Assembly (NCBI RefSeq): GCF_009937995.1 | Contig: NZ_AP021881.1 | Coordinates: forward strand, 2,790,001 to 2,854,000 | Direction of reading: 5' to 3' | Source of the DNA: Sulfuriferula nivalis | Lineage (GTDB): Bacteria > Pseudomonadota > Gammaproteobacteria > Burkholderiales > Sulfuriferulaceae | DNA length: 64,000 bases | Made by a program: the position numbers and the translations under genes | In this document: one piece after another, positions 37,248 through 39,777 of the stretch | Layout: every line of letters starts with the position of its first letter | Position numbering within the stretch: the stretch's first letter is position 1 | The notes under the pieces: generated by a model | What the model was told of the DNA's origin: nothing | The model's database searches: none | The model's input: the letters and a program-made list of their open reading frames with translations, nothing else

Positions 37248-37310
37248 GCCCAACGAATAAGGTTAGATTGTGATCGCGAAGCGAGCCACAATCTGAACCG
37301 TTTGTTGGAC
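37248..37310 (+). other. Integron-type attC recombination site
   Basis: A 63-bp imperfect palindrome. It has R'' GCCCAAC (37248), R' GTTGGAC (37304, matching GTTRRRY), and inner arms GGTTAGATTGTG and CACAATCTGAACC that pair with one extrahelical C, as attC sites have. The loop is rich in GCGAAGCGA. It lies 43 bases after the small RHH gene on the same strand, the usual cassette order. No IntI is seen in the window, so this would be a lone or remnant cassette. Confidence 0.75.
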
Positions 37311-37525
37311 AAGCCCGGCATGGCTGGGGCGGGTGTTGCTTGAGCGCTTATGGAAATATCTTTTTGACTATGCTGGCATAACTGGACGCGTTACGCATCC
37401 CACCCGCCATTTCACGACCTTCACGTTGCCATTGCAGCAACTTATTCTATTCAACTCACCGTTTTTAGTCGGCTTTTCGGGCATGTTAACCCAATTTCAG
37501 CCTTCTTCAGGGCGAGCACGGCCAT

Positions 37526-37545
37526 ACCTGCCTAGTCTGGCAGGT
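37526..37545 (-). terminator. Hairpin just after the IS91 transposase gene
   Basis: A perfect 7-bp stem (ACCTGCC / GGCAGGT) with a 6-base loop starts 18 bases past the transposase stop. No U-run follows on the minus strand. It may be an mRNA end or part of the element's 3' (origin-like) terminus, where IS91 members carry small hairpins. Confidence 0.35.
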
Positions 37546-37562
37546 GGGCGGTGTGGGCTGGT

Positions 37563-38678
37563 TTAGCGCATGGTCTCCCACCCTGTGTCATCTGCTCTGT
37601 GTTCCCGTTTTATAGATGGGGCTGATGTGGCTAGCGGTATCGCTTTGATACGTGTGCGCACTATCTTCATCACCCCACCGCAACATTGGCAACGTATCGC
37701 TGGTCTGGGTTGCGCTGGCGGCGGATTGTTCCGTCGCCATAGGTGGGTCAGCTGTAGCTGGGTGAGTAGTTTGCTATTGGGATGCAGGTAGCCAAAGTTG
37801 CGGGCGCGGCGGTAGCCTTTGGGCAGAATGTGTTGCAGTATCAGTCGCAGGAAGGCTACACCACTCAAGGTACGGGTTTCCATTTGTTTGGTTTGGCTGT
37901 TCCGGTAACGGAAGGTGACCTGACCATGCCGGTCGGAGAGGATGTCTTTCTCCTGTATCACCCCCCGATACAGATAGCGCCCAAGGTAGATCAGAGCGTG
38001 CTGTCCAGTGCCGACGGCTTTGCAATCCACCACCCAATCGGTCGGGTAATCGTTTGGCAGGGTGAGTCCTGCTTGTCTGATGCCTGCCAGTAATTTGGCA
38101 CGAAATACTTTGGCCAGGGCTTTGTGGTTAAACAGGTAGTTGCCGTGTTTATGACGCATGCGTCGCTGTTTGGGGTTAAAGGCGACAGCGGGCATGACGA
38201 GATGCACATGGGGGTGATAGTCCAGTCGGCGGTTATGGGTATGCAGTACAGTCACCGCCCCTGCGCTGCCGCGCAGCTTGTTGTCGTTTTGGCTGAAGGT
38301 GTTGACTGTTTCCCACGCGCAGCGTGTGATCAAGTCATACATGACGCGCTGATGTTGCCAGGCCAGTGTGCGCAACTGGGCGGGCACGGTGAAGGTGAGC
38401 ATGAAGTAGTTGGCGGGGATGGATTTGTGTAATTGCTGGTCTATCCAGCGCTGTGATTCGTGCGCCTGGCAATGCGGGCAATGCCGATGACCGCAGGAAT
38501 GTGGCAGGTAGCTGGGTGTTTGACAATCATCACAGGCAAGTTGCATCCTCGGGCTCATCTGGCTACGGCAGGTTTGAAAGGCGGTTAAGGCAGCTTGCTG
38601 GCTGGGCAATAGGTGATGACCGTGTTGTGCAAGCAGTTTAGCTGCGTAGGTTGCTACGATGTGCGCCAGTCTGATCAT
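37563..38678 (-). CDS. IS91-family HUH transposase
   Basis: A 371-residue protein from the ATG at 38678. It has an N-terminal zinc finger (CDDC near 49-52, then CGHRHCPHC at about 62-70), the HUH motif HPHVH (H157, H159), and the paired catalytic tyrosines in [11 protein letters not shown] (Y231, Y235). A Cys-Cys pair (RCQCCGGVM) sits near the C-terminus. It performs rolling-circle-like transposition. The frame appears full length. The start overlaps the stop of the recombinase -1 frame, so it is probably translated by coupling. Confidence 0.92.
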
Positions 38679-39588
38679 TTGACTTTGCCCCAATGAATGT
38701 GGAATTTCTCCATTAATTGATTAAGGCGAGTGTGTGCGCTCTGATGGCGTTGTTCGGTGAGGTGGGTGTAGCGGATGGTGGTGAGGATGGACTGGTGTCC
38801 GAGTATCTGCTGAATTTCGAGTAAATCGATGCCAGCTTCTATCAGGTGGGTGGCATAGCTGTGGCGCAGGCTGTGTGGTGTAATTCTTTTTTTAAGCCAC
38901 AGTCACGGGTCACTTGACCCAAGGTGGTCTGGATACCACCACGATCCAGCGGGGTGCGTGCCAAGTGCGATTTGGCAAGACCGCCGTGTCGATTAGGAAA
39001 GAGCAAGCTTGGGTTGCGATGGGTGAGCCAGAAACGGCGCAATACCTGCAAGGTGTTCTCTGATAACGGCACCAATCGATCACGGTTGCCTTTGGCGTTG
39101 CGTACTTGCACCCGCATCCGATCCGCATCGATATCCCCTACCTGCAAGCGTAAGCCTTCGCCTAATCGTAAGCCCAGGCTGTAGAGGGTGAAGAAGAATA
39201 CGCGGTAGCTCAATACGCGGGTGGCCATGAAGATTTGTTGTGCCTGGGCGACGGTAATGATGTCGGGCAGGCTATATGACTTGGGTGGTTTAACCAGATC
39301 CGCACCTGGCCAGGGTTGGCTGAGTACATGGGCATAATAGAACTTCAGTCCATACAGATCATGTTTGAGCGTACTCCATGAATGGGTATCCAGGATGCGA
39401 ACAAAATAGTCGGTTAATTGTGGCTTGGTGAGCGCGTCTATCTGGTCATTAAAATACACCGCTGCGCGCCGTACGCCGTGTGAATACAAGGCGATGGTTT
39501 TAGGCTGCATGCCTCTGAGCTTGAGGCAATTCAGCAGTCGCTGGTGATTGTGCTCGAAGTGCGCGGGGATGGGTGTGGGGGCTGTCAA
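38675..39588 (-). CDS. IS91-associated tyrosine recombinase, read through a -1 frameshift
   Basis: The zero frame runs from a TTG at 39588 (GAGGAGA 6 bases upstream) to a TGA at 38842 and carries an N-terminal SAM-like core-binding domain, catalytic R141 (GLRLGE) and K166. It lacks box II. One base back, after residue 234, a 70-residue tail in the -1 frame supplies [20 protein letters not shown] and the nucleophile in TTIRYTH, then stops at 38675, overlapping the transposase ATG. The shift falls in an A7 run. Full length would be about 304 residues. Programmed frameshift or a single-base mutation; the tail is undamaged in either case. Confidence 0.75.
38887..38893 (-). other. A7 slippery run at the recombinase frame change
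   Basis: The minus strand reads TTA AAA AAA GAA in the zero frame. Slipping back one base on A AAA AAA gives AGA ATT ACA and continues the recombinase family sequence without loss. This is the type of heptamer used for -1 frameshifting in dnaX and insertion sequences. No strong stimulatory hairpin or upstream Shine-Dalgarno is clear. Confidence 0.5.
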
Positions 39589-39590
39589 TG

Positions 39591-39639
39591 TCGTCTCCTC
39601 GTGGTACAGTAATCAAAATTCCATTGCTGGGGGAGACGA
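39591..39639. repeat. 8-bp inverted repeat in front of the recombinase
   Basis: TCGTCTCC at 39591-39598 pairs with GGAGACGA at 39632-39639 across 33 bases. The left arm includes the recombinase ribosome-binding site (GGAGA on the minus strand), so the structure could control translation, or mark the element's right end. Confidence 0.35.
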
Positions 39640-39693
39640 AATTATGCTGCGTAATTTGATGGTTCGGGAATATTTCTCCGCGATAGCGGCTTC

Positions 39694-39777
39694 GTTCAAC
39701 CCTGCATTCGAGCAGGACTCACCAAAAACGGGCGAACCCCTCAATTTTACGTTGAGAGGCTCTACATTACGTTGGAC
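39694..39777 (+). other. Possible second, degenerate attC end
   Basis: R''-like GTTCAAC (39694) and R'-like GTTGGAC (39771) lie 84 bp apart with only short inner pairing (GAGC and CTCA blocks plus unpaired bases). R' is the same 7-mer as in the good attC at 37304 and lies 21 bases before the ATG of the next plus-strand gene, as at a cassette start. The weak stem makes this uncertain. Confidence 0.3.

Follow-up and report, generated by a model that had tools for sequence, protein, structure and literature searches.

A probable maintained −1 frameshift in the tyrosine recombinase of an IS91-family element with attC-like ends in Sulfuriferula nivalis

The full-length tyrosine recombinase of an IS91-family element of Sulfuriferula nivalis is probably the product of a maintained −1 frameshift at an A_AAA_AAA heptamer. 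The recombinase gene is split between two frames at this heptamer, the split has a single origin on the recombinase tree, and it has been retained together with the heptamer. Both parts of the gene are under purifying selection, each in its own register. A programmed slip, either in translation or in transcription, is more likely than a dead gene to account for this pattern.

Results

The element and its copies

The window, i.e. the whole stretch of 64,000 nucleotides of S. nivalis DNA that was analysed, carries the element at 37252..39700; this and all other features of the window described below lie on the minus strand. The borders were determined from the sharp drop of identity at both ends across 34 copies, resulting in a length of 2449 bp with the GTT at both ends counted. 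The genome (3.44 Mb, 3 contigs) contains 34 full-length copies, of which L040 lacks the first bases of its left end, and additional fragments. No difference was detected in 22 of the 34 copies, including that of the window, over the aligned part, about 2.3 of 2.45 kb. Sequences identical to those of the window were determined in 33 of 34 copies for the frame-0 part, the tail and the transposase alike, and in 31 of 34 for all three together. The near-identity of these parts indicates that the split form is the form that spread.

Two copies, L013 and L039 (host C1 1359063-1363826), are arranged as direct tandem copies sharing one GTT, and their junction forms the palindrome TTCGTTGAACGAA. A 90%-identical fragment was also detected in a species of the same genus (L046, G286 C2 21228-21625). 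It corresponds to the end part of the transposase gene, and the search gave no recombinase match at the fragment.

The recombinase gene is divided at the heptamer

The first part of the recombinase is encoded by a zero-frame ORF of 248 aa with a TTG start (38842..39588). In the profile search, this ORF matched PF13495 (Phage_int_SAM_4), the core-binding domain, and positions 3-128 of 172 of PF00589, the catalytic first half with Arg and Lys. The slippery heptamer at 38887..38893, which reads T7 on the plus strand, has the register NTA AAA AAA, class A_AAA_AAA. After the A-run, the zero-frame ORF adds about 15 non-conserved codons and then stops. The second part is a −1 frame tail at 38675..38890, 71 aa in length from the shared Lys codon, with box II HSLRH, LGH and RYTH; its piece at 38675-38887 matched positions 126-171 of PF00589 (E 4.9e-16). 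The catalytic set of tyrosine recombinases is complete over the two frames, with Arg and Lys in frame 0 and His-x-x-Arg, His and Tyr in the −1 tail. In the host's own copies, the tail frame is devoid of ATG, GTG and TTG codons from the upstream stop to box II.

The A7 run was present in 34 of 34 full host copies, and likewise in a partial copy with 91.6% identity. A sequencing or assembly error was considered as the source of the frame break and ruled out; it is very unlikely because the identical tract occurs in 34 copies and in relatives from other assemblies.

The transposase gene and the ATGA overlap

The downstream gene (37563..38678) encodes an IS91-family (HUH, two-tyrosine) transposase with matches to NF033538, PF04986 and PF14319. 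The score with NF033538 was 347 bits in comparison with the cut-off of 125, the motifs HPH and YLGRY were found at 155 and 231, respectively, and both the zinc-binding N-terminus and the HUH two-tyrosine signature were present. The initial annotation was right in describing an IS91-linked tyrosine recombinase, and its coordinates and the split at A7 were confirmed as well.

The TGA stop of the tail sits inside the ATGA at 38675..38678, which also holds the start of the transposase gene. The overlap was present in 14 of 14 full-length tails of the split clade described below. A 4-base overlap of the recombinase and transposase genes is also annotated in five in-frame relatives, so the overlap is not a product of the split. 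In the host's own copy, TGGGG directly precedes the ATG of the transposase. From this gene arrangement, translational coupling of recombinase and transposase is plausible. Dependence of transposase translation on the slip, as suggested in the initial annotation, is no more than possible, given the overlap in the in-frame relatives and the TGGGG.

Relatives of the split recombinase

Relatives were sought in named genome contigs and in further genomes of the order (399), family (18), class (369) and phylum (398). The clade of nearest relatives, with recombinase identities of roughly 58-86%, includes loci from Sulfurimicrobium, Nitrosovibrio, Nitrotoga and Gallionella assemblies among others. In 15 of 15 clade loci spanning the junction (3 host and 12 non-host), the tail was offset by −1 at an in-register A_AAA_AAA. 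The tail was exactly 71 aa in 14 of these loci, the remaining one, L042, being rearranged after 21 codons. Frame 0 stopped about 15 codons past the run in 13 of 15 loci and later in L047 and L135. The run consists of 7 As followed by G, or 8 As followed by G or C, with no net indel among the 13 aligned sequences. Seven As were found in the host's own copies and their nearest relatives and 8 As in 6 of the 13. Since both lengths occur without a net length difference, the offset is not explained by the run length alone.

An additional upstream frame break was detected in 4 of the 12 non-host relatives (L077, L080, L082, L124), so some copies are decaying or misassembled. One scan of the named contigs used a pattern that included frame-0 residues past the run and could therefore favour split relatives among L075-L084; the same split was found in L047, L049, L113, L114, L124 and L135, which were obtained by other searches. 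Recombinase pieces lacking the tail (L048, L050, L053, L055, L079, L081, L084, L118, L121, L123, L125, L142) could not be scored, and neither could L083, in which an internal deletion covers the junction. L083 is a decayed copy with more frame breaks in both the recombinase and the transposase.

Outside the clade, IS91-linked recombinases with about 28-50% identity are mostly encoded in one continuous frame, as was determined for Salinivibrio, Photobacterium, Herpetosiphon, an E. coli plasmid and several other genomes. The junction columns were left out of the 36-row tree, in which one 100/100 branch held the 14 split rows and the nested deletion copy L083, with 18 in-frame rows outside. The most economical reading of this topology is that the frame break arose once and was then kept. 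No in-frame member of the clade was found except L083, the deletion copy that lacks the junction. Prior to tree building, L041 (a near-duplicate), L086, L141, seven entries for places already represented, rows with fewer than 150 filled columns and 16 rows that were partial or XerC/D-like were left out; L144-L148 are also outside the tree. The homologue comparison proposed in the initial annotation was positive within the clade, with the same split at the A-run in all 15 loci; in-frame homologues do exist, outside the clade.

A sister lineage (L116, L119, L139, L140, L144, L145) has A-runs of varying length at the same place and all three offsets, and its tails are full except that of L140, which has an early stop. 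This pattern fits transcriptional slippage, phase variation or decay in that lineage. In a single sequence, L119 (1740-1800), extra bases including TTAGGAG precede the A-run beside the frame-0 stop; in sequence they vaguely resemble a Shine-Dalgarno (SD)-assisted shift site.

Wider searches added little. Of 113 pattern matches in viral contigs none was confirmed, and phage records gave just 3 matches with 25-26% identity. The families around G1003, G254 and G565 contained no new relatives and that of G581 only already known loci, while the family of G620 yielded L144-L149. The tail alone matched at least 5000 plasmid records and was too general to help. No Rfam match was obtained for the 4 loci searched.

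Selection and codon usage at the junction

The median dN/dS was 0.115 for the frame-0 part up to the A-run (17 of 36 pairs usable, many being saturated) and 0.18 for the −1 tail (62 of 78 pairs from 13 tails); pairs that were saturated or failed are excluded from these and the following counts. For the first 15 codons past the run, the median was 0.05 in the −1 frame (45 of 78 pairs) and 2.05 in frame 0 (64 of 78 pairs). The differences in this stretch were distributed over the −1 codon positions as 98, 88 and 541, respectively. R141 and K166 were invariant in the frame-0 alignment (A1, 8 rows), and H6, R9, H32 and Y41 in the tail alignment (A2, 13 rows). The earlier view of an undamaged tail under selection agrees with these values and with the 71 aa length kept in 14 of 15 tails.

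The codon before the Lys pair ended in A in 14 of 14 sequences (TTA in 8, CTA in 3, ATA in 2 and GTA in 1), the junction codons of L077, L080, L082 and L124 being entered from the junction comparison. Elsewhere in the same genes, 2-33% of the Leu, Ile and Val codons end in A, which indicates that the heptamer itself is maintained. AAA accounted for 0-90% of Lys codons in the rest of the genes, and the Lys pair therefore says less in the members where AAA is common. L047, with GC3 of 0.88, keeps CTA AAA AAA, although AAA is used in none of its 11 other Lys codons and only 2% of its Leu, Ile and Val codons end in A.

Element ends and insertion sites

The 5' end of the element, GTTGAACGAAGCCGCTATCGCGG (39678..39700), begins with a GTTRRRY box and was conserved in at least 33 of 34 copies per position. 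Of the 27 loci scanned, 26 have GTTG(A/G)ACGAA, starting as GTTGAAC or GTTGGAC, in front of the recombinase, and L114 has one difference. The 3' end (37252..37310) is attC-like and consists of an RYYYAAC box, a long hairpin, TTATTC and then GTT. Split and in-frame relatives end alike, with an RYYYAAC-like box, a hairpin, a TTAT-like stretch and GTT; in 2 of 11 aligned 3' ends the box is GTACAAC, which breaks RYYYAAC. When the 3' ends were folded as single-stranded DNA, the z values were −5.39 for the host's own L045, −3.8 for L087 and −1.6 for L047. By the same folding, two attC sites of the host array gave −1.8 and −3.9, and the left site of the window −1.9.

The window copy interrupts an attC-like site at 39701..39777 (GTCCAAC ... 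CTGCTCGAATGCAGG). The boxes of this site are complementary at 6 of 7 positions, and its right half has one difference in 16 in comparison with the attC sites of the host cassette array, in which the attC sites end with CCCGCTCGAATGCAGG followed by GTTGGGC. Neither this site nor the attC-like 3' end of the element was part of the finding in the initial annotation.

The 3'-terminal GTT of the element is shared with the target or lies next to it. The next base is A or G in 33 of 34 copies, and one copy ends with GGT. As GTT is located at both the start and the end of the element, a 3-base duplication is indistinguishable from a shared GTT. Members of the IS91 family are not known to make a classical target duplication, and their 3' end abuts a fixed short target. 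In the 5' flank, C T T G A A is favoured at −12 to −7, the pattern seen in the right half of integron attC sites. A match to at least 4 of 6 attC positions was obtained for 24 of 32 distinct left flanks, and not for the other 8, in comparison with 4.0% of 1082 control GTTR sites; the six positions were taken from four host array attC sites with the flank consensus of the element already known, so this test was not blind. The 32 flanks exclude L040, which has no left end, and the tandem junction. The strict two-box test (at least 6 of 7 positions complementary) was passed by the window copy, L017 and the tandem junction of the element's own ends. With just two copies passing besides that junction, most targets resemble the right half only.

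The host integron integrase gene was identified at 3207092-3208030 with a score of 484 bits (cut-off 265), and two copies of the element are located 0.6 and 4 kb from it. A diverged partial copy (L042, host C1 3113000-3118500, together with L154) lies beside several attC sites, at a distance of about 90 kb from this integrase gene.

Discussion

Mechanism of the slip and competing explanations

In the proposed mechanism, ribosomes that do not slip would stop about 15 codons later, and their protein would comprise the DNA-binding domain and half of the active site. A minority of ribosomes would slip back by one base and add the 71-residue tail carrying box II, the second His and the nucleophilic Tyr. 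As in IS1 and IS3, slipping would keep the recombinase at a low level; a regulatory role, exerted by binding to the element ends, is possible for the short product. We infer from the sequence comparisons that the slip is ribosomal rather than transcriptional, and in our judgement the ribosomal form was weighed clearly above the transcriptional one. Stem-loop, pseudoknot or upstream SD stimulators are common, though not universal, at programmed −1 frameshift sites. The search for stimulators covered stem-loops and an upstream SD. No consensus structure was detected at +5 to +76 or +5 to +104 (z −0.2 and −0.5, respectively; 13 sequences), the 8 single folds downstream gave z of −1.1 to +2.1, and only 1 of 13 sequences had an SD-like tetramer at 15 nt or less from the heptamer.

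The lack of a detected stimulator and the 8-A runs of the clade would also agree with RNA polymerase realigning on the A-run, so that part of the mRNAs had a changed number of As and normal translation gave the full-length recombinase. This explanation is rather unlikely, since neither the −1 offset nor the A_AAA_AAA register of the run varies within the clade; moreover, seven As are short for efficient transcriptional slippage. The direction of the offset bears on the same choice. According to a published rule (PMC3711429), a constant direction is a sign of ribosomal and a mixed direction a sign of transcriptional recoding. By this rule, the −1 direction kept throughout the clade points to a ribosomal slip, and the mixed offsets at the same place in the sister lineage point to a transcriptional one, unless those copies are simply broken. 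That last possibility leads to the explanation that the element does not need the recombinase and that mutations are frequent at the run, in which case the split would be a decayed or phase-variable state carried along by an active transposase. The variable run length of the sister lineage, the plainly broken copies L083 (internal deletion), L042 (truncated tail) and L140 (early stop) and the second frame break in a third of the non-host clade relatives would agree with it. A dispensable recombinase is nevertheless improbable. The tails have kept their length almost without exception and the His, Arg, His and Tyr in all 13 aligned sequences, the low dN/dS is found in the −1 frame, and the split goes back to a single origin with large synonymous divergence and without decay of the tail; the clade also lacks an in-frame member apart from the deletion copy. 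As for the two parts being separate polypeptides that assemble, with the tail initiated at its own codon, the tail frame of 6 of 15 clade loci has an ATG, GTG or TTG that precedes the run by four codons, and 5 clade loci have a TTG within box II. However, the host's own copies, which multiplied, have no such start codon, and a one-base offset exactly at a slippery heptamer would be a coincidence, making independent initiation highly improbable.

Comparison with known systems

The frameshift sites of IS1 and IS3 use an A-rich heptamer, in likeness to the A_AAA_AAA of the present element, and the protein recoded there is a DDE transposase. Unlike in IS1 and IS3, the protein that is probably recoded in the present case is a tyrosine recombinase whose gene precedes that of an HUH transposase, and the search for stimulators recognised none. 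The families of insertion sequences for which the part of PMC5009743 consulted describes recoding are IS1, IS3, IS5 and IS630, and the −1 frameshifting of IS1 and IS3 presented there is similar in that two overlapping frames are used in a small multicopy element, the upstream product being the DNA-binding part and the fusion adding the catalytic part. The word IS91 does not occur in the portion of PMC5009743 consulted, nor in PMC4066793.

In-frame IS91 elements of Salinivibrio, Photobacterium and Herpetosiphon and ISAzo26 of Aromatoleum have the same gene order and, except for ISAzo26, the 4-base overlap. The Salinivibrio and Photobacterium loci also have element ends as described here. All these elements differ in that the recombinase is one continuous frame. 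With TIGR02249 (integron integrase, cut-off 265), the frame-0 part scored 71 bits and the in-frame relatives L085 and L088 162 and 163 bits, respectively, which places the recombinase outside the integron integrases by family score. Among solved sequences, those nearest to L088 were XerC-like, XerA, IntI4 and XerD.

The GTTRRRY start and the attC-like 3' end give the element the layout of a gene cassette. The likeness covers the start box, the hairpin end with the RYYYAAC box and the location at GTTR after an attC-like right half. A gene cassette normally has neither a recombinase nor a transposase. Association with integron attC sites is shared with IS1111-attC, group IIC-attC introns and ISShvi3, among which the group IIC-attC introns use an RNA route, unlike the present element. 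IS1111 differs by its DEDD transposase (PMC11187229, in the part consulted). ISShvi3, an IS91-like element in Shewanella, is reported to adjoin an attC and to give rise to a new cassette structure, and the passage on it in PMC9229058 is silent on a recombinase or its frame.

The recombinase would act at attC-like sites, where the element appears to be inserted like a gene cassette. The GTTR rule could be accounted for by the action of the HUH transposase alone, which does not, however, obviously account for the preference seen in the left flank. It is conceivable, though on balance somewhat doubtful, that the element is a self-mobile gene cassette, i.e. an element of the IS91 type that has attC-like ends and encodes an HUH transposase together with an XerC/IntI-like recombinase made only by the −1 slip, in which the transposase would peel off a single strand and the recombinase would insert the folded attC-like end into integron attC sites. 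The strict two-box attC test, passed by just two copies, makes this proposal less likely. Neither the frameshift nor the cassette-like layout was found described in the literature search, which covered few subscription journals and is therefore weak evidence.

A conserved frameshift in the tyrosine recombinase of an HUH-transposase element would extend recoding to another kind of enzyme chemistry. Through the attC preference, what the recombinase gene does in IS91-type elements of this sort can be tested directly. If the element is indeed a self-mobile cassette, the frameshift would meter its invasion of cassette arrays.
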